Shown piece by piece: positions 299 through 32,764 of a stretch of DNA of 32,764 nt. The position numbers and the translations under genes were made by a program. The DNA comes from Flaviaesturariibacter aridisoli (GTDB lineage: Bacteria; Bacteroidota; Bacteroidia; Chitinophagales; Chitinophagaceae): positions 1 to 32,764 of the forward strand of contig NZ_SKFH01000039.1 of assembly GCF_004343705.1 (NCBI RefSeq), read 5' to 3'. Positions within the stretch are counted from its first letter, which is position 1; each line of letters begins with the position of its first letter. Under the pieces are notes generated by a model that was not told where the DNA came from, searched no databases, and saw only the letters and a program-made list of their open reading frames with translations.

Positions 299-571
299 GT
301 AGCCGCGGAACACGCTATTGTCGCCGCGGAAGCATCTAATGGACCCGCGGAGGCCGCTAACGTCGCCGCGGAGCCTGCTGTTGGACCCGCGGAGCCATCT
401 ATCGCCGCCGCGGAGGCATCTATCGTTGCCGCGGAAGCATCTATCGTCGCCGCGGAAGCATCTCTCGTTGCCGCGGAGCCATCTCTCGTACTCGCGGAAG
501 CATGGCCCGTCGGCGCGGAGGCATCTGTCGTCGTCGCGGAAGCAACTGTCGGAACCAGGGGCGGGTCTGCT
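299..571 (+). repeat. 21-bp-periodic tandem array, locus 1 (12 in-phase units plus decayed end)
   Basis: Twelve consecutive 21-bp units start at 299, 320, 341, 362, 383, 404, 425, 446, 467, 488, 509 and 530, without a single indel. Unit consensus begins GTCGCCGCGGAAGCATCT followed by three more bases. The core CGCGGA (unit positions 6-11) is identical in all twelve and begins at 304, 325 and so on to 535. In the first nine units it extends to the palindrome CCGCGG. The second half of the unit drifts (AGCATCTATC, GGCCGCTAAC, GCCTGCTGTT, AGCATGGCCC). A thirteenth unit (551-571) is degenerate and a further GCGGA at 575 is out of phase. Because 21 is divisible by three, all frames stay open and yield spurious heptad-repeat ORFs. 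The array ends about 125 bp before the start of the helical-protein gene at 698, on the same strand. A matching arrangement with a different core occurs at 31282-31575. Confidence 0.9.
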
Positions 572-663
572 GGCGCGGAAAGCTACCCATTTGTTTTTTC
601 CGAAAGATGAGTTATATTGGTCTTGTCTTCCGCCCCCTTTGAAACCGACTGCTACCTTAAAAA

Positions 664-697
664 CACTTTTATTTTTTAACGCTAAAATTTAAAAGTG
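664..697 (+). promoter_or_regulatory. AT-rich inverted repeat abutting the start codon of the 698 gene
   Basis: CACTTTTA (664-671) and TAAAAGTG (690-697) are perfect inverted arms. The sequence between them (TTTT...AAAA) can extend the stem. The right arm ends one base before ATG 698, so an RNA hairpin would sit on the ribosome-binding region. No Shine-Dalgarno-like stretch is seen. It could be a cis-regulatory hairpin, an operator, or chance in AT-rich DNA. Confidence 0.45.
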
Positions 698-1375
698 ATG
701 ACCAAAGTTCAAAACCGTTACATCGCCATGTACGGCGCCATTCTCTTGTTTTGCAAAGAAAATCAGGCCCTGGTTGCACTCAGCCCGGCGTTTCAAAAGG
801 CAGTTTTGTGGCTGAATGGGCAGGTGAACCGCATCGATGCGGCGGTGCTGCGCCAGCAAAAGAACCAGCAGGGCGGCGGCGCCAAAAAGACGACGCGCGA
901 GATCATTTGCGCCACCGGTGCCGTGCTGAGCTCCCTGGCAGCGGGCTGGGCCAACGAAGAAGGGCTTGCCGACATGGAAGCCCGCAACACCTGGACGGAG
1001 CCGAAGCTGGACAAGCTCTCCGATGCCCGCCTGCACGCGGTGTGTACCCTCATTGCGGAAGATGCCCACACGGCCCTTGCCGGCGGTGCCGAAAACGGGA
1101 TCACCGACGAATCAATCACCGGCTTCACTGCTGCCCTGGGCCTTTTCAAGGAAGAAAAAGATGCGCCGCGCAAAACCACCACGGCCCGCAGCACGCAGAC
1201 CAACGAGTTGAAGAAACTCATTGCACAAACCAACGACGGCCTCAAAAAGCGGATGGACCGGAACGCTGCGTTTTACAAATCCAAACACCCGGAATTCTAT
1301 TTTGAATACAAGGAAGCCCGCAAACTGATCGACCCCGCATCGAGGCCGAAGAAGGAAGCGGTGAACGAAGCTTGA
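698..1375 (+). CDS. Helical protein of unknown function, array-associated family member 1
   Basis: A 225-residue protein with no signal peptide or membrane segment, predicted largely alpha-helical and rich in Ala, Lys and Glu. I do not recognise a named domain. It has an N-terminal aromatic segment (RYIAMYGAILLF), a middle Lys-rich stretch (QQKNQQGGGAKKTTRE), a long central helix region, and a C-terminal block ending AAFYKSKHPEFYFEYKEARKLID. The 30370-31065 product has the same order of features: early MY...A, Lys/Ala linker near residue 60, and an ...RHPDFVKRWFAARALDE block at the same place. I therefore treat the two as divergent paralogues. ATG 698 is preferred; GTG 695 is in frame immediately before it. 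The gene is monocistronic, with the 21-bp array upstream and a strong terminator at 1407-1435. Function is unknown. A role tied to the array (binding it, or being controlled through it) is inference from layout only. Confidence 0.85.
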   Translation: MTKVQNRYIAMYGAILLFCKENQALVALSPAFQKAVLWLNGQVNRIDAAVLRQQKNQQGGGAKKTTREIICATGAVLSSLAAGWANEEGLADMEARNTWTEPKLDKLSDARLHAVCTLIAEDAHTALAGGAENGITDESITGFTAALGLFKEEKDAPRKTTTARSTQTNELKKLIAQTNDGLKKRMDRNAAFYKSKHPEFYFEYKEARKLIDPASRPKKEAVNEA

Positions 1376-1406
1376 TGTGTCATCAGGTAGATAGTTTTTG
1401 GTTTAG

Positions 1407-1435
1407 ATACCCCGTGATGAGCGGGGTATTTTTTT
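1407..1435 (+). terminator. Rho-independent terminator of the 698 gene
   Basis: Stem ATACCCCG / CGGGGTAT with a 7-nt loop, followed by six T residues, 32 bp past the stop codon. Confidence 0.9.
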
Positions 1436-1881
1436 GTCCCGCCTTACTGCAAATGTGCCCTGCGCCGCACACGGTTTATGCGGCCCCTCCCACGGCGCGC
1501 ATGCCTCTGGCATGCATCGATGCCATCCGCCCCCGGGGATTTCATCCCGGGTTGTGAAGCGTGCATGCCTCCGGCATGCGGGGGGATTTGCCATCCGTCG
1601 TTTCGTTTCCCGGGATTTCATCCCGGGTTGTGAAGCGCGCATGCCTCCGGCATGCCGGGGGGTGTCGTCCCGTCGGGCAGCCCGGGGTTAGGCGGGGGGG
1701 TGTACGGTGCCTGCCTCCGGTACGCGGATCCGTGCCAGGGCCCAGTCGCAGGCGGCCTCTATCTGTCCGGGGGCAGAAGCATGCCGGAGGCATGCGCGTT
1801 TTGCAGCCCGGCATATTTTGCCGGGCGTACGCAGGCAACGCGGCCCGGTGCATGCCGGAGGCATGCGCGATGGGGGCGCGG
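1436..1881. repeat. Left REP cluster flanking the RAYT gene
   Basis: Gene-free stretch filled with palindromes. REP cores GCATGCCTCCGGCATGC (or its reverse complement) lie at 1499-1515 (one mismatch), 1563-1579, 1639-1655, 1779-1795 and 1850-1866, with a decayed copy near 1708-1725. A second hairpin accompanies most of them. CCCGGG-A-TTTCA-T-CCCGGG lies at 1532-1551 and 1609-1627, joined by TTGTGAAGCG to the following REP. GCCCGGC-ATATTTT-GCCGGGC (1806-1826) follows the inverted REP at 1779. The first three cores are in one orientation and the two nearest the transposase are inverted. This is the configuration of REP/REPIN elements mobilised by a RAYT. Confidence 0.88.
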
Positions 1882-2793: not shown

Positions 2794-3384
2794 ATGTCCG
2801 CCGATTTCGGAAAGATCATCATCCTCACCGCTCCCTCCGGCGCGGGCAAGACCTCCATCACCCGCTACCTGCTGGGCAAATATCCCGGGCGCCTCGCCTT
2901 CTCCATATCGGCGGCTACCAGGCAGCCGCGCGGCACCGAGCAGAACGGGCACGACTACCACTTCATGAGCGTCGCCGAATTCCAGGACCGCATCCACAAA
3001 AACGAATTCATGGAGTGGGAGATGGTGTACGAAGGCAAATACTACGGCACGCTCAAAAGCGAGATGCGCCGCATCTGGAGCGAAGGCAAGACGCCCCTGC
3101 TCGATATCGACGTGAAGGGCGCCATCCACATCCAGCAGCAATACCCCGAAAACATCCTCTCCCTGTTCATCGAGCCGCCCTCCATCGAGGAACTGCAGCG
3201 CCGCCTCACCGGCCGCGGCACCGAAAGCCCCGACTCCATCCAGGCGCGGATCAACAAGGCCGCCTACGAGATCTCGTTCAAGCACCACTTCCACAAAATC
3301 ATCGTGAATCACGACCTGGAGCAGGCGTGTAAAGAGGCGGAAGAAGCCGTGCTGGCGTTTATAGGGGAAGGGCAGAGTAAATGA
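2794..3384 (+). CDS. gmk: Guanylate kinase
   Basis: A 196-residue cytosolic nucleotide kinase that phosphorylates GMP (and dGMP) with ATP, essential for GTP supply. The P-loop is A13-PSGAGKTS, with Lys19. GMP-binding features follow in order: SISAATRQPRGTEQNGHDYHF, EMVYEGKYYGTL, and LLDIDVKGA. The LID-like segment RLTGRGTESPDSIQARI is also present. The frame stays open upstream into the REP cluster, but ATG 2794 gives the family's usual length and sits 22 bp after a TATCTTCG -7 element. It is monocistronic and convergent with the AraC-type gene; the two are separated only by an inverted octamer-word repeat. Confidence 0.97.
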   Translation: MSADFGKIIILTAPSGAGKTSITRYLLGKYPGRLAFSISAATRQPRGTEQNGHDYHFMSVAEFQDRIHKNEFMEWEMVYEGKYYGTLKSEMRRIWSEGKTPLLDIDVKGAIHIQQQYPENILSLFIEPPSIEELQRRLTGRGTESPDSIQARINKAAYEISFKHHFHKIIVNHDLEQACKEAEEAVLAFIGEGQSK

Positions 3385-3471
3385 CTACATGATTACATGA
3401 GTACATGAGGTTTGATGGGAGGGATGAATTTCTGACCTCATGTAATCATTTGCTCATGTATTCATGTAATC
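3384..3471. repeat. Inverted octamer-word repeat (TACATGAn) between gmk and the regulator
   Basis: The left arm (3384-3410) contains three 8-bp steps, TACATGAT-TACATGAG-TACATGAG. The right arm (3436-3471), read on the minus strand, contains four steps: ATTACATGA, ATACATGA, GCAAATGA, TTACATGA. The arms are inverted copies of the same degenerate word separated by about 25 bp, so both strands can fold. The element lies exactly between two converging genes and overlaps both stop codons, so it may be a bidirectional terminator. A relative lies at 14540-14654. Confidence 0.8.
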
Positions 3472-4336
3472 ACCCCTCTTTTCCCAACTCCTGCATCCTC
3501 GCTCTATATTCCCTCGGCGATAGTCCTTTCTTTTTGCGGAACACCCGGTTGAAATACGTCAGGCTTTCAAAGCCGGTGGCAAAGGCGATCTCGGCGATCG
3601 ATTTGTCGGTGCCGGTGAGGAGGCTGCAGGCGTGGCCCGTGCGTACGTCGTTGAGGTAGTCGGAGAAGGTCTTGCCCGTGACGCGTTTGAAGAAGCGGCA
3701 GAAGGCGCTCGGCGACAGGTGCAGCAACGCGGCCGCCTCGGCCAGCGGCAGCGGGCGGGCCGACGCTTTCTGTATGTGCTGGCACACCTTGTTGATGCGG
3801 CGCTCCGTTTCCTTGGAGCCACGGGCGGCGTCAAACCAGGCCGAAGCCAGCGGCATACTCCGGAGGCGCGACAAACCGCCCAGGATCTCCAGCAGTGCCG
3901 TCACCCGCGCCATGCCCGTGCGGGCGGGCAGGGCCGTTACCAGCTCCGCCAGGGCGCGACTCGCACGGGCGGGGAAGTGCAGTCCCGCCGCCGACCCTTC
4001 GAGTAGTGCCGCTACACCAGCCGCTTCGGGCCAGTGAAGGAAGTCGCCGGCGAAGCTTTCCGAAAACTGTATGACTACGGCTGTAGATCCGCCGCGCAGG
4101 GGGCGGTCGCTGGTCCAGGTATGCGGCAGGTTGGGGCCGATGAGCACGAGGTCGCCGGCGGCGAAGGGCTCGTACGAATCGCCCACCAGGCGCTTCCCCG
4201 ACCCGCGGGTGATGAGCGTGAGCTCGTACTCGGGATGGTAGTGCCACTTGAACGGAAAGGCCGGCACCTTCAGGTCGTAGGCCACGAAGGAGGCATTGCC
4301 TTTTTTGCTGCTGATCTCTTCAAATGCCGCGCGCAT
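3470..4336 (-). CDS. AraC-family transcriptional regulator with N-terminal cupin sensor
   Basis: A 288-residue regulator. The N-terminal cupin half (FKWHYHPEYELTLITRG ... FAAGDLVLIGPNLPHTW) is the usual ligand-sensing barrel. The C-terminal ~100 residues are the double helix-turn-helix of AraC/XylS: first HTH LPLAEAAALLHLSPSAFCRFFKRVTG, second HTH KSIAEIAFATGFESLTYFNRVF, then KKGLSPREYR. The frame can be extended to ATG 4411, but those 25 residues do not fit the cupin. ATG 4336 begins where relatives begin and has TATATTG just upstream, so I chose it. It is divergent from the dioxygenase-isomerase-porter-glycosidase operon starting at 4462, and local control of that operon in response to a sugar is the natural inference. 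Confidence 0.93.
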   Translation of the reverse strand: MRAAFEEISSKKGNASFVAYDLKVPAFPFKWHYHPEYELTLITRGSGKRLVGDSYEPFAAGDLVLIGPNLPHTWTSDRPLRGGSTAVVIQFSESFAGDFLHWPEAAGVAALLEGSAAGLHFPARASRALAELVTALPARTGMARVTALLEILGGLSRLRSMPLASAWFDAARGSKETERRINKVCQHIQKASARPLPLAEAAALLHLSPSAFCRFFKRVTGKTFSDYLNDVRTGHACSLLTGTDKSIAEIAFATGFESLTYFNRVFRKKKGLSPREYRARMQELGKEG

Positions 4337-14539: not shown

Positions 14540-14654
14540 TACTTGATTACTTGAGTACATGAATAATAGATTACTTGGGGGATGCACCCCTGTCATGGTG
14601 AACGCCTTCCCTCAGGTAGTCCCGTAATCATGTATTCTATTATTCAAGTAATCC
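14540..14654. repeat. Inverted octamer-word repeat (TACTTGAn/TACATGAn) between tatC and rpiB
   Basis: The left arm (14540-14580) steps every 8 bp: TACTTGAT, TACTTGAG, TACATGAA, TAATAGAT, TACTTGGG. The right arm (14621-14654), on the minus strand, gives GATTACTTGAA, TAATAGAA, TACATGAT, TACGGG. The word is the same family as at 3384-3471. A GTCATGGTGA element (14592-14601) sits in the loop. Confidence 0.78.
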
Positions 14655-14692: not shown

Positions 14693-15148
14693 ATGCACGC
14701 TCCTCTTTTCGACCTTTCGAAACCCATCGCCATCGGCGCCGATCACGCCGGTTTTGAATACAAGCAGCAGCTCGTTCAATGGCTGCGCGACAAAGGCCTC
14801 CAGGTGACCGACTTCGGAACGGACAGCCCCGACTCGGTTGATTACCCCGACTTCGCACATCCCGTAGCTTCCGCCGTTGAGAGCGGTGAAGCAGCGGCCG
14901 GCATCCTCGTTTGCGGCTCCGCAAACGGTGTGGCCATTACGGCCAACAAGCACGCCGGCATCCGCGCGGCCATCGCCTGGGAAGACCAGCTTGCGTCGCT
15001 CGCACGTCAGCACAATGCCGCCAACATCATCTGCATTCCTTCCCGCTTCGTGACGCTCGAAACGGCCAAACACATCGCCGGCCTTTTCCTCGAAACACCC
15101 TTCGAAGGCGGACGGCACGAGAACCGCGTCAATAAGATCGCCTGCTAA
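14693..15148 (+). CDS. rpiB: Ribose-5-phosphate isomerase B
   Basis: A 151-residue cytosolic enzyme of the RpiB/LacAB family, which interconverts ribose 5-phosphate and ribulose 5-phosphate in the pentose phosphate pathway. Motifs are IGADHAGFEYKQ (phosphate and catalytic loop, near residue 11-22), DFGTDSPDSVDYPDFA, GILVCGSANGVAITANK (the active-site Cys and SANG loop; most relatives have C-GTG-G at this point, so the small change is notable) and RQHNAANIICIPSR. The open frame runs 37 codons further upstream through the octamer repeat; ATG 14693 fits the family's length. Confidence 0.95.
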   Translation: MHAPLFDLSKPIAIGADHAGFEYKQQLVQWLRDKGLQVTDFGTDSPDSVDYPDFAHPVASAVESGEAAAGILVCGSANGVAITANKHAGIRAAIAWEDQLASLARQHNAANIICIPSRFVTLETAKHIAGLFLETPFEGGRHENRVNKIAC

Positions 15149-15324
15149 TCTGCTAGTTTGCCAATGTGCTAATAAACGAACGCCCAGCCGAATGCCGGGC
15201 GTTCGCTATTCATGTGTTGGTAGAGAAGCGGTGTTTGCAAATTATCGCGGGAGCAGGCCGGCACATTAACTGCCGGTAACAAACAAGTATTAGCAGACCA
15301 GCACATTAGCACATCAGCACATTA
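15148..15324. repeat. Inverted octamer-word repeat (ATGTGCTn) with internal terminator, after rpiB
   Basis: The left arm (15148-15174) reads ATCTGCTA-GTTTGCCA-ATGTGCTA-ATA. The right arm (15288-15324), on the minus strand, reads TA-ATGTGCTG-ATGTGCTA-ATGTGCTG-GTCTGCTA-ATA. All steps are exactly 8 bp. A separate hairpin (15177-15205) and GCCGGCACATTAACTGCCGG lie between the arms. Confidence 0.8.
15177..15205 (+). terminator. Hairpin after rpiB
   Basis: Inverted arms CGAACGCCC / GGGCGTTCG, 28 bp past the rpiB stop, inside the octamer-word element. The T-run is weak. Confidence 0.6.
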
Positions 15325-20913: not shown

Positions 20914-21698
20914 AGCGCCCCGCCCTGCTCCTGACCTTCGATGTGGAAGAATTCGACATGCCGCTCGAGTACGGACAGTCCGTGCCGGAAGACGAGCAGC
21001 TCCAAGTTGGCCGCGAAGGCCTGCGCGCCGTGCAATCATTGCTGGAAGCCTATCCACAGGTGCGCGGCACCTTTTTCACCACCGCCAACTACGCGCAACA
21101 CGACGAAGAAGGCGTGCGGGCGCTGGCGCAAAAGCACGAGATCGCCTCGCATACATTTTACCACACGCACTTCGACGTGCCCGACCTGCTTTCTTCGCGC
21201 GAAGCGCTCGAGGCGATCAGCGGGCAGGCCGTACGCGGGCTGCGGATGCCGCGCATGCGGCCTGTGGAAATGTCCGACGTGCTTGCCGCCGGCTACACCT
21301 ACGATTCGTCGGTCAACCCCTGCTGGCTCCCGGGCCGCTACGACAACCGCCACCTGCCCCGCAACCCGTACACCGAATCGGGCATGCTGCGCTTTCCCGC
21401 TTCGGTCACGCCCCGCTTGCGCATCCCCCTGTTCTGGCTGTCGTTCAAGAACTTTCCCTACCCACTCTTCCGCAGCTGGGTGAAGGCTACGCTGAAAAAG
21501 GACGGCTATGCCTGTCTCTATTTTCATCCCTGGGAATTCATCCGCCTCGACAGCTACAAGATCCCGGGCTACACCAAGGCCCGCGCCGGCCAGCCCCTGC
21601 AGGACCGCCTGCGGCGCCTCATCGAGGATTTTTCGACGGAGTGTGATTTCCTGCCCATGGCGGAATACATATCGTCAGGCGTGAGGCGTGAGGCGTGA
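20910..21698 (+). CDS. Polysaccharide deacetylase (NodB/CE4 fold)
   Basis: A 262-residue protein with no signal peptide. The CE4 motifs are LLTFDVEEFD (catalytic base Asp11; the second acidic residue of motif 1 is present), then SHTFYH (zinc ligands His81 and His85), and GLRMPRMRPVEMSD as motif 3. YLYFHPWEF-type text near the end (CLYFHPWEFIRLDSYKIPG) matches the His-containing last motif of WalW/DUF3473-like deacetylases. It is the third gene of the envelope-glycan operon. The last codons overlap a GCGTGAG heptamer repeat (21674-21702), which may have replaced the original C-terminus. Confidence 0.9.
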   Translation: MKRPALLLTFDVEEFDMPLEYGQSVPEDEQLQVGREGLRAVQSLLEAYPQVRGTFFTTANYAQHDEEGVRALAQKHEIASHTFYHTHFDVPDLLSSREALEAISGQAVRGLRMPRMRPVEMSDVLAAGYTYDSSVNPCWLPGRYDNRHLPRNPYTESGMLRFPASVTPRLRIPLFWLSFKNFPYPLFRSWVKATLKKDGYACLYFHPWEFIRLDSYKIPGYTKARAGQPLQDRLRRLIEDFSTECDFLPMAEYISSGVRREA

Positions 21699-21702
21699 GC
21701 GG
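21674..21702 (+). repeat. Heptamer repeat GCGTGAG overlapping a stop codon
   Basis: GTCAG-GCGTGAG-GCGTGAG-GCGTGAG-CGG, three perfect 7-bp copies. They encode the final residues and the TGA of the deacetylase gene. Confidence 0.8.
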
Positions 21703-21834
21703 CTGCGTCTTTCGTTTTCGATCACTCCGCGTAAAAGAGGAGTTTGCTTCCCTCGCCTCAGGCGAGGTCGCAATGACGGGCATTCGCCCGTCCGTCCAAA
21801 CAAGTAGCCGTGTTTACGGCTGGTAGGTCCCGGT

Positions 21835-21865
21835 TACCAATTAACCAATAGACCAATTAACCAAC
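21835..21865. repeat. Octamer repeat ACCAATTA
   Basis: ACCAATTA-ACCAATAG-ACCAATTA-ACCAAC, 8-bp steps. It lies directly downstream, on the minus strand, of the terminator for the PepSY-like gene. Confidence 0.7.
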
Positions 21866-22642: not shown

Positions 22643-22670
22643 GGATGTCTGATGTCGGATGTCTGATGTA
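22643..22670 (+). repeat. Heptamer repeat GATGTCT/GATGTCG in the acpH leader
   Basis: GATGTCT-GATGTCG-GATGTCT-GATGTA, 7-bp steps, ending 5 bp before ATG 22676. The same words form an inverted repeat at 28783-28846. Confidence 0.8.
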
Positions 22671-27282: not shown

Positions 27283-27367
27283 GATCTCAGATTTAGGATT
27301 TCAGATCTCAGATTCCAATGCCGCTCATACTGAATCCTAAATCGCACATCTGAAATCTGAAATTTTG
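27283..27367. repeat. Inverted heptamer-word repeat (ATTTCAG) in the leader of the PLP enzyme gene
   Basis: Left arm (27283-27316): ATCTCAG-ATTTAGG-ATTTCAG-ATCTCAG-ATTCC. Right arm (27329-27367), on the minus strand: ATTTCAG-ATTTCAG-ATGTGCG-ATTTAGG-ATTCAG. Strict 7-bp steps. The right arm ends 3 bp before ATG 27371. Confidence 0.8.
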
Positions 27368-28782: not shown

Positions 28783-28846
28783 GATGTCTGATGTAGCGGG
28801 AACTGCTTTTTCCCTATCAGACATCCGACATCCTACATCAGCGATC
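28783..28846. repeat. Inverted heptamer-word repeat (GATGTCT/GATGTAG) behind the kinase gene
   Basis: Left arm (28783-28796) GATGTCT-GATGTAG. Right arm (28815-28846), on the minus strand, GATCGCT-GATGTAG-GATGTCG-GATGTCT-GATA. The CTTTTTCCC loop and the position 11 bp after the minus-strand kinase stop suggest terminator use. Confidence 0.78.
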
Positions 28847-31281: not shown

Positions 31282-31575
31282 AGCCCTGCAAGGCCAATAT
31301 TTGTCATTGTTACCGGCGCGATTGCCATTGTGGCGCTGTAAACGGGCGTTGAACGGGCGCGCGTGGGCGTTGCAGCGCCGGCAATGGCCGTTGCAATCCT
31401 TTCAGCGGTCGTTGCAAGGAAAACAGCGGTCGATGCACGGTTGTTCGTGCTCATTGCAGCCCCGTGGATGGGCGTTGCTGCGCTGCGGGCGGGCATGGAA
31501 AGGCAAATGCCGGTCCTTGCAGGCGCTGCAGGGGTTATTGAAAAAGTGTACGTGGCGGTTGCGGGAGGCTGCAGC
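31282..31575 (-). repeat. 21-bp-periodic tandem array, locus 2 (14 units with unique variable halves)
   Basis: Units begin (plus-strand coordinates) at 31282, 31303, 31324, 31345, 31366, 31387, 31408, 31429, 31450, 31471, 31492, 31513, 31534 and 31555, always 21 bp apart. Plus-strand consensus is GNCRTTGCA plus about 12 variable bases ending mostly in G. Unit position 7 is G in 14 of 14, position 6 is T in 13, and positions 1 and 3 are G and C in 12. The remaining bases of each unit are essentially unrelated to one another (AGCGCCGGCAATG, AATCCTTTCAGCG, AAGGAAAACAGCG, ACGGTTGTTCGTG, and so on). In gene sense the core reads TGCAAYGNC. The array lies upstream of the 30370-31065 gene and ends about 15 bp before the IS256 element. 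Confidence 0.85.
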
Positions 31576-31589
31576 TTACAATGTGGGAG

Positions 31590-32764
31590 AGTGTAAACTA
31601 AACTGTGTCAGGTTGAGACGATTTCTCATCTTTAAAACAGTTTATGAAAAAGGAAAAGAAGGATTTGTTGTCCGGCCTTGATCCGGAAGTTCGCCAGCAG
31701 GCCCTGGATCAGTTTATGAGCGGGAAGGCGGTTTTTGGCAAGGAGGGCGCCCTGGGGCCTTTGCTGCAGCAGTTGCTGGAAGCTGCCCTGGAAGGGGAAC
31801 TCGCCGCGCATTTGAAGGAAGAACAGCCGTATTTAGAAGGGGAGGCGAACCGGCGCAACGGTTTTTCCCGTAAGCAGCTTCGAACCGCCGCCGGCACTAT
31901 CGAACTATCCACGCCCCGCGACCGCCTGGGTTCCTTTGAGCCGGACCTGGTCAAAAAGCGGCAAACCATTCTGGCCGATAACCTCGAGGAAAAGATTCTG
32001 GGTTTGTACGGGCTGGGGATGTCGCTTCGGGATATCTCGCGGCATATCGAAGAGATGTACGGCACCGAGATCTCCCACACGGTCTTATCCGAGATCACCG
32101 ACCGGGTGGTTCCTGCGGTGAAGGCCTGGCAGAGCCGGCCCCTGGACCCCGTCTATCCCATTATGTGGCTGGATGCCATGTACTATAAAGTGCGGGACGA
32201 GGAGTCCGGTAAGGTGGTGACGCGCTGCCTGTATAATATACTGGGCATCCTTCCCTCGGGCCACAAGGAGGTATTGGGCTGCTACGTGAGCGGGTCGGAA
32301 GGAGCGCGCTTCTGGCTCTCGGTCCTTACAGACCTGAAGAGCCGCGGGGTAGAGGACGTGCTGATTGCCTGTATCGATAACCTGAGCGGATTTGACGATG
32401 CCATCAGGACGGTGTATCCGTATTGCGACGTGCAGAGCTGCATCGTCCACCAGTTGCGCAACTCCGCCAAATATGTAGCTTCTAAAGACCAGCGTGCTGT
32501 TCTAAAGGAGCTGAAGGCGGTGTATGGGGCCGTGAACCGAAGTGTTGGGGAGAGCGCCCTGGAAGCCTTTGCAGGCAAATGGACAAAGCAGTATCCGCTG
32601 GTGGTGAACTCGTGGCAGACCAACTGGGATAAGCTCTCCACCTTCTTCGATTACCCGGAGCACGTACGCCGGGTGATCTATACGACCAACACCATCGAAG
32701 GCTATCACCGGCAATTGCGCAAGGTCACCAAAACAAAAGGAGCCTTCGTCAATGACATGGCGCT
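31590..32764 (+). mobile_element. IS256-family insertion sequence, left part
   Basis: The element consists of a transposase gene and a likely left terminal repeat beginning near 31590 (GTGTAAACTAAACTGTGTCA, 31592-31611). The exact end and target duplication cannot be fixed because the right end is outside the window. It begins directly beyond the 21-bp array. Confidence 0.75.
31644..32764 (+). CDS. IS256-family (mutator-type) transposase, truncated by window edge
   Basis: An open frame of 373 codons from ATG 31644 to the end of the window. The DDE residues are Asp177 in MWLDAMYYKVRDE, Asp245 in CIDNLSGFDDAI, and Glu352 in TTNTIEGYHRQLRK. The C-x2-H motif typical of the family is SCIVHQLRNS. 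The usual D-G-L at the second Asp is D-N-L here. N-terminal text (GALGPLLQQLLEAALEGELAAHL, EANRRNGFSRKQLRT, IELSTPRDRLGSFEP) is also typical. No frameshift is seen in the visible part, so the copy may be active. These transposases move the element by a copy-out type reaction. Confidence 0.93.
   Translation, partial: MKKEKKDLLSGLDPEVRQQALDQFMSGKAVFGKEGALGPLLQQLLEAALEGELAAHLKEEQPYLEGEANRRNGFSRKQLRTAAGTIELSTPRDRLGSFEPDLVKKRQTILADNLEEKILGLYGLGMSLRDISRHIEEMYGTEISHTVLSEITDRVVPAVKAWQSRPLDPVYPIMWLDAMYYKVRDEESGKVVTRCLYNILGILPSGHKEVLGCYVSGSEGARFWLSVLTDLKSRGVEDVLIACIDNLSGFDDAIRTVYPYCDVQSCIVHQLRNSAKYVASKDQRAVLKELKAVYGAVNRSVGESALEAFAGKWTKQYPLVVNSWQTNWDKLSTFFDYPEHVRRVIYTTNTIEGYHRQLRKVTKTKGAFVNDMA

Follow-up and report, generated by a model that had tools for sequence, protein, structure and literature searches.

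Iteron origins carry direct repeats at about two helical turns upstream of the rep gene. In parC/ParR, phased direct repeats with an 11 bp unit lie upstream of the gene for a small binding protein and are coated by it in register. TIGR-Tas systems combine a protein that has a Nop domain with 36 nt tigRNAs, which derive from spacer-containing dual-repeat units (PMC12045711). The stretch of 32,764 nucleotides analysed here (the window) twice shows a related arrangement: a tandem array of 21 bp units followed by the gene for a small helical protein. Many Bacteroidota have families of small helical proteins encoded beside private arrays, with repeats spaced by two or four turns of the double helix; this hints at a set of proteins, not described so far, in which every member would read a single face of its private array. 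A literature search that left out most subscription journals returned no description of this layout.

The two loci of the window

Table 1. Positions of the arrays, the genes and neighbouring features in the window
Feature	Position	Strand	Description
Array 1	302..553	+	12 units of 21 bp; consensus gcCGCGGAagCatCT.tcGt
Gene 1	698..1375	+	ATG at 698, stop ends at 1375; 225-residue helical protein
Terminator-like hairpin with T run	1405..1431	+	3′ of gene 1; from a hairpin scan that gave three sites in all against 2.6 in shuffles, i.e. without excess
REP-like palindromes	1480–1880		several copies of type GCATGCCTCCGGCATGC, seen by eye 3′ of gene 1
Tandem repeats of 7 or 8 bp	3375–3472, 14540–14577, 15142–15324, 21673–21864, 22643–22669, 27283–27363, 28816–28839		about 2–5 copies, differing units, apparently intergenic
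Gene 2	31065–30370	−	231-residue paralogue of the gene 1 product
Array 2	~31285..31578	−	13–14 degenerate units of 21 bp
Transposase-like gene	31644–32764		beside array 2, runs off the contig end; IS256-type by eye

The earlier note had described a strict 21 bp array before a helical-protein gene at both loci, and this is borne out by the spacing of the units. Both arrays lie upstream of their respective genes, in gene sense. All 11 unit spacings of array 1 measure 21 bp, and its lag-21 identity is 0.74 compared with 0.28 in shuffled sequence (z = 16.8); for array 2 the corresponding values are 0.47 and 0.27 (z = 7.6). Array 2 had been counted as 14 units, which is the number obtained when it is folded by hand, whereas automatic calling gives 13 (12 of 12 spacings at 21 bp). 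The unit cores CGCGGA in array 1 and TGCAA in array 2 are correct. Array 2 has a single conserved block instead of two: in gene sense, the conserved part of its unit is tgCAA.g.Cc and the remainder is variable. The two proteins are paralogous (BLASTP 7e-6), each finding the other in whole-genome searches at about 2e-4. Gene 1 has an alternative start, GTG at 695. Contig C47 carries a copy of locus 1 with 100% identity that reaches the end of C47; since this end position and the orientation are those of two overlapping contig ends, the other being the beginning of the contig that holds the window, the copy was counted as locus 1 itself.

Tandem repeats similar to the 7 or 8 bp ones of Table 1 are also found in loci L013 and L014. 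Intergenic 7 bp TAACTGA repeats in other bacteria are the subject of a published paper (PMC4679880).

Array-plus-gene loci in other genomes and in two further families

The window's genome (4.37 Mb, 84 contigs) holds 14 distinct members of the protein family of the window (the first family); the search lists 15 matches, one of which is the contig-overlap copy of locus 1. The distribution of the family is patchy and often multi-copy, with matches in 40 of 294 genomes of the same bacterial family (the window's own counted in) and in 22 of 395 genomes phylum-wide. It has two branches, A3 and A4, whose homology is supported by an hhalign probability of 99.8. Among the scanned members, the core domain has no match over the cut-off in Pfam or NCBIfam, and no other curated family covers it; four of these members carry an extra C-terminal carboxypeptidase-regulatory-like domain over the cut-off and one an fn3 match below it. 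Among solved structures, the only similarities were weak ones, either to coiled-coil proteins or to helical proteins made by design. Phage and plasmid records (one query each) gave no match, and in viral contigs no relative was confirmed. Named records with a relative are Paradesertivirga mongoliensis, Flaviaestuariibacter flavus and the Chitinophagaceae metagenome bin PMG_218; the array is present at the Paradesertivirga locus and the first PMG_218 locus and absent at the F. flavus locus. Genome G010, which shares the contig coordinates of the F. flavus hit and so is seemingly that very assembly, nevertheless has four array-bearing loci (L037, L043, L046 and L048). In one paralogue of the window's genome (L031, G000:C27), the C-terminal part is out of frame relative to the others.

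We tested 122 loci of the first family in 57 genomes: 14 from the window's own genome and then 12, 75, 20 and 1. The 75 are part of the 111 rows of the search in the same bacterial family (own genome and G018 left out), the 20 come from the phylum-wide search and the last one from the named records; the untested rows were mostly weaker, partial or at contig ends. Upstream sequence was too short at two loci, leaving 120 testable. An array was scored when the signal at lags of two or four turns lay more than 5 standard deviations above 60 dinucleotide-preserving shuffles of the same locus. This check of homologues by upstream autocorrelation, which the earlier note had named beforehand, found an array at 102 of the 120 loci, compared with 6 of 88 downstream control stretches, which were often shorter than the upstream ones. 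The top lag corresponded to two, four or six turns in 106/120 upstream and 17/88 downstream stretches. At least one array is present in 50 of the 57 genomes, and at 18 of the 120 loci none was detected upstream. The units differ among most loci. The existence of the array-plus-gene module is secure. The census agrees with the proposal of a spacing that is conserved while the unit differs, and the observation exceeds its first account in extent.

The same layout is found in two further families. DUF6261 (PF19775), with genes for about 240 residues and 14 copies in the window's genome, has an array in 17 of 19 loci (control 1/19) at a period of 41–43 bp, or four turns; counted by a top lag of 41–43, the figure is 18/19. 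The third family, which is unnamed, was found by its array and starts with INPIKLFGNFF. It comprises 15 loci, two of them too short to test, and all of the 13 testable loci pass (control 1/13), 12 of them also by a top lag of 41–42. It occurs in seven genomes, six of which are also among the matches listed for the first family. The three families may be distant relatives; the hhalign probabilities among them are 36, 35 and 0.5. The window proteins have no DUF6261 match in the Pfam scan, and the profile–profile probability between their family and DUF6261 is 36. The two have the layout of array and gene in common, but differ in period, and any kinship between them is marginal. In the literature searched, the name DUF6261 occurs in one paper.

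The repeated unit, its partner gene and its dispersed copies

For motif work we took 88 arrays of the first family, with 8–25 units each. The strongest mean harmonic of conservation along the unit is 10.5 bp, with z = 14.0 for the 88 arrays and z = 11.1 for 67 non-redundant ones; without any motif model the rhythm is again seen (z = 10.1, 97 arrays), as it is in a 42 bp fold (z = 18.4). It should be read as an average: among 75 arrays, 10.5 bp is the leading harmonic in 35 and the one-patch 21 bp harmonic in 16, and array 2 of the window, with its single conserved block, does not follow the two-patch pattern. The 21 bp harmonic is itself significant (z = 7.1) and exceeds the 10.5 bp one in the 18 most degenerate arrays. 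No 10.5 bp signal was found in A/T content (z = −1.1) or purine content (z = 0.3), and bent DNA was rejected as the cause of the rhythm, since A/T lacks this phasing. Palindromic units are not in excess (p = 0.55; mirror symmetry p = 0.053) and the similarity between half-units is small (0.02–0.05 at lags 9–10, 0 expected), so that the typical unit is asymmetric. A third-family locus (L211 12978–13229, G000:C29) has a unit that contains, by eye, the palindrome TCACAATTTTGTGA, unlike the asymmetric first-family units. The exceptions in spacing keep the helical phase: the consensus of L033 has two cores 20 and 21 bp apart within a 41 bp repeat, L032 has a period of 41 and L031 mixes 21 and 22. 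The suggestion that 21 bp stands for two helical turns thus gains from the conservation rhythm, from the 20/21 alternation and from the relatives with periods of 41–43 bp. In the first family, the rhythm points to duplex DNA being read in a sequence-specific way from one face, a well supported interpretation; the rhythm does not reach significance in the small set of DUF6261 arrays (z = 1.5) or in those of the third family (z = 1.3, with two of the 13 windows placed off the array).

Protein similarity is correlated with unit similarity (Mantel r = 0.40 on the same strand and r = 0.11 on the opposite strand, both p = 0.0005), which is also expected from linked descent alone. Three pairs of proteins that are 65–68% identical have unrelated units (0.27–0.33), which means that the codes turn over. 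Among the 11 gene-linked 21 bp arrays of the window's genome, no pair exceeds 0.58 (53 pairs) when two related pairs are set aside, and one general factor is therefore unlikely to be able to read all of them. We infer that the adjacent gene is the sole constant locus-specific partner of each array. A comparison of same-unit with different-unit pairs hinted at the N-terminal 45 residues as the specificity region; it was set aside because overall identity differs between the two groups (0.70 versus 0.53).

Arrays sharing their unit with a gene-linked array also lie away from its gene, a feature that, like the two further families, the earlier note had not recorded. A blind scan for 21 bp arrays, which covered 787 kb (18%) of the window's genome, found two arrays that precede family genes already listed, three next to members of the two other families and four without an adjoining family gene (C11:51047, C11:31393, C29:43314 and C2:275896). 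Three of these four each match one particular gene-linked array (0.83, 0.66 and 0.64, with column-permuted maxima of 0.55–0.60; p = 0.003 each, the smallest value possible with 300 permutations): C11:51047 matches array 1, C11:31393 the array of L023 and C29:43314 the array of L026. At 0.64, the last is the lowest of the three, compared with a maximum of 0.62 among 693 cross-genome comparisons; this array (L213 3493–3681, G000:C29) lies between trpB and trpA, both on the same strand. The unit of C2:275896 matches none of the gene-linked arrays compared, and the array may belong to L036, which lies about 1.1 kb further on and itself lacks an array. For four arrays next to genes of other families, no such unit match is seen (p 0.10–0.65). 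The scan also returned a 21 bp array downstream of a 251-residue gene without a Pfam match (L185 17168–17440, G000:C1), and a hit at C2:170619 was dropped as coding repetition, as it overlaps the end of a ribosomal-protein-like frame. In addition, an array with the unit of array 1 at C29:82652–82856 was found via the 14-base core of array 1 and confirmed by a search with the whole of array 1 (E = 3e-27; match 0.90). The contig ends about 95 bp past it, and a gene beyond this end is possible. As it was found by an array 1 query, the claim of action in trans rests on three of the four blind arrays. The whole of array 2, used in the same way in the window's genome, returned only itself.

Readings of the layout and comparison with known systems

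We lean, with some reserve, towards the view that each putative cognate protein coats its own phased array, both where this precedes the gene and at dispersed locations. Each locus would be a self-contained pair, made of the gene for a small helical protein and an upstream array of double-stranded DNA. Units placed every two helical turns would present contact patches on one face, and the cognate protein would recognise the asymmetric unit by touching it at points spaced by roughly one turn, line up in register and coat one side of some 170–525 bp of DNA. Dispersed arrays with the same unit would be further sites in trans. The likely outcome would be control of the protein's own gene and of the genes beside dispersed arrays, or else a locus-specific folding of the chromosome. 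The adjacent protein as the putative binder is the most economical inference from these sequences; the wide range of predicted pI (about 5 to 9.5, median 6.2) and the lack of a recognised core domain count against all of the proteins coating DNA.

It is possible, if rather unlikely, that the arrays are only cooperative operators or upstream activating arrays with which the protein regulates its own gene, and that the dispersed ones are leftovers of duplication. Their place upstream, in gene sense and at a median of 138 bp from array end to ATG (88 arrays), fits such a role, but the distance varies widely (quartiles 81–202) and operators usually have fewer than the 8–25 units counted here. Moreover, two dispersed arrays are correctly oriented before ordinary genes, namely trpA and an FAD/2Fe-2S oxidoreductase gene, and the one at C29:82652–82856 keeps the unit and period of array 1 between flanks without similarity.

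A role for the array as transcribed RNA, be it an antitoxin of the type III toxin–antitoxin kind, a guide array or a structured leader, appears improbable. A small protein gene preceded by tandem repeats does resemble toxIN and TIGR loci, and matches to the Bacteroidota promoter consensus (TTTG / TAnnTTTG) are enriched in the gap between array and gene (51 versus 25 in shuffles) and upstream of the array (53 versus 31); the antisense strands give 56 versus 40 and 45 versus 33, so that the consensus is neutral on array transcription. Against an RNA role, the 88 arrays fold no better than their column-permuted versions (mean z −0.11 sense and −0.20 antisense), which also gives no support to the structured leader that the earlier note had envisaged. 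Conservation follows the period of the double helix, the window has no Rfam match at the gathering threshold, and some arrays have near-identical units without variable guides (L172, lag-21 identity 0.95).

Neutral minisatellites that keep their period by slippage are a very doubtful explanation: higher-order 42 bp copies in some arrays and the turnover of units between paralogues are as slippage would give, yet the period is common to most loci tested across the phylum and rare downstream, and the 10.5 bp rhythm is absent from simulated neutral arrays (n = 100, z = 0.0). A coding role, in which seven codons per 21 bp would yield a peptide of heptad repeats, for example in the 149-residue frame 161–610, has next to no credibility and was rejected for the family by stop codons. 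A sense frame is open through array 1 and part of array 2, and the least-interrupted frame has somewhat fewer stops than after column permutation (33 compared with 45.7, summed over 68 arrays). Yet in 32 of these 68 every sense frame is interrupted, 21 have no open frame at all, and repeats of 41 or 43 bp do not preserve a reading frame of triplets.

Beyond the coating of individual arrays, we tentatively propose that Bacteroidota possess orthogonal protein–DNA address codes, in which paralogues of at least three helical families would have private one-face arrays and scattered copies of them. Coated arrays would link specific loci far apart on the chromosome or govern them as a private regulon, with fresh codes emerging as units turn over. 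If the cognate protein does read its array, these would be natural, mutually distinct protein–DNA codes, phylum-wide and in proteins without a recognised DNA-binding domain. This would suggest a role for DUF6261 and two unnamed families, and would offer a case of protein–DNA co-evolution with many parallel replicates and possibly usable orthogonal DNA binders. The dispersed arrays make a regulatory or chromosome-folding network directly testable.

Compared with described systems, the loci resemble type III toxin–antitoxin modules (ToxIN) in that tandem repeats precede the gene for a small protein, but differ in having a DNA-helix rhythm and no RNA structure signal; known type III toxin families had no match in Pfam, NCBIfam or PADLOC. 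They resemble TIGR-Tas (PMC12045711) in the array beside a gene, with repeats that are constant within a locus and different between loci and most often 5–15 units, whereas the units here are of 21 bp, near-identical in some arrays and without dual repeats. The Nop domain had no match in Pfam or solved structures, although a very remote relative is possible. With parC/ParR they share a phased direct-repeat array upstream of the gene for a small protein, here a putative binder; the unit is of 21 bp instead of 11 bp, the protein is not recognised as ribbon–helix–helix, no ParM-like ATPase was found among ten window proteins scanned, and gene 1 is followed by the terminator-like hairpin. Helically phased direct repeats of about 17–22 bp that precede the gene of a putative binder are common to iteron/Rep systems and the present loci. 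Here, however, a genome has up to 14 copies of the family, mostly with their own unit, and dispersed arrays as well, and the members scanned have no core match over the cut-off to a Rep domain in Pfam or NCBIfam. None of the known families fits; in logic, the nearest are iteron/Rep and parC/ParR, and the system may well work like iteron or parC arrays, without membership of either being implied.
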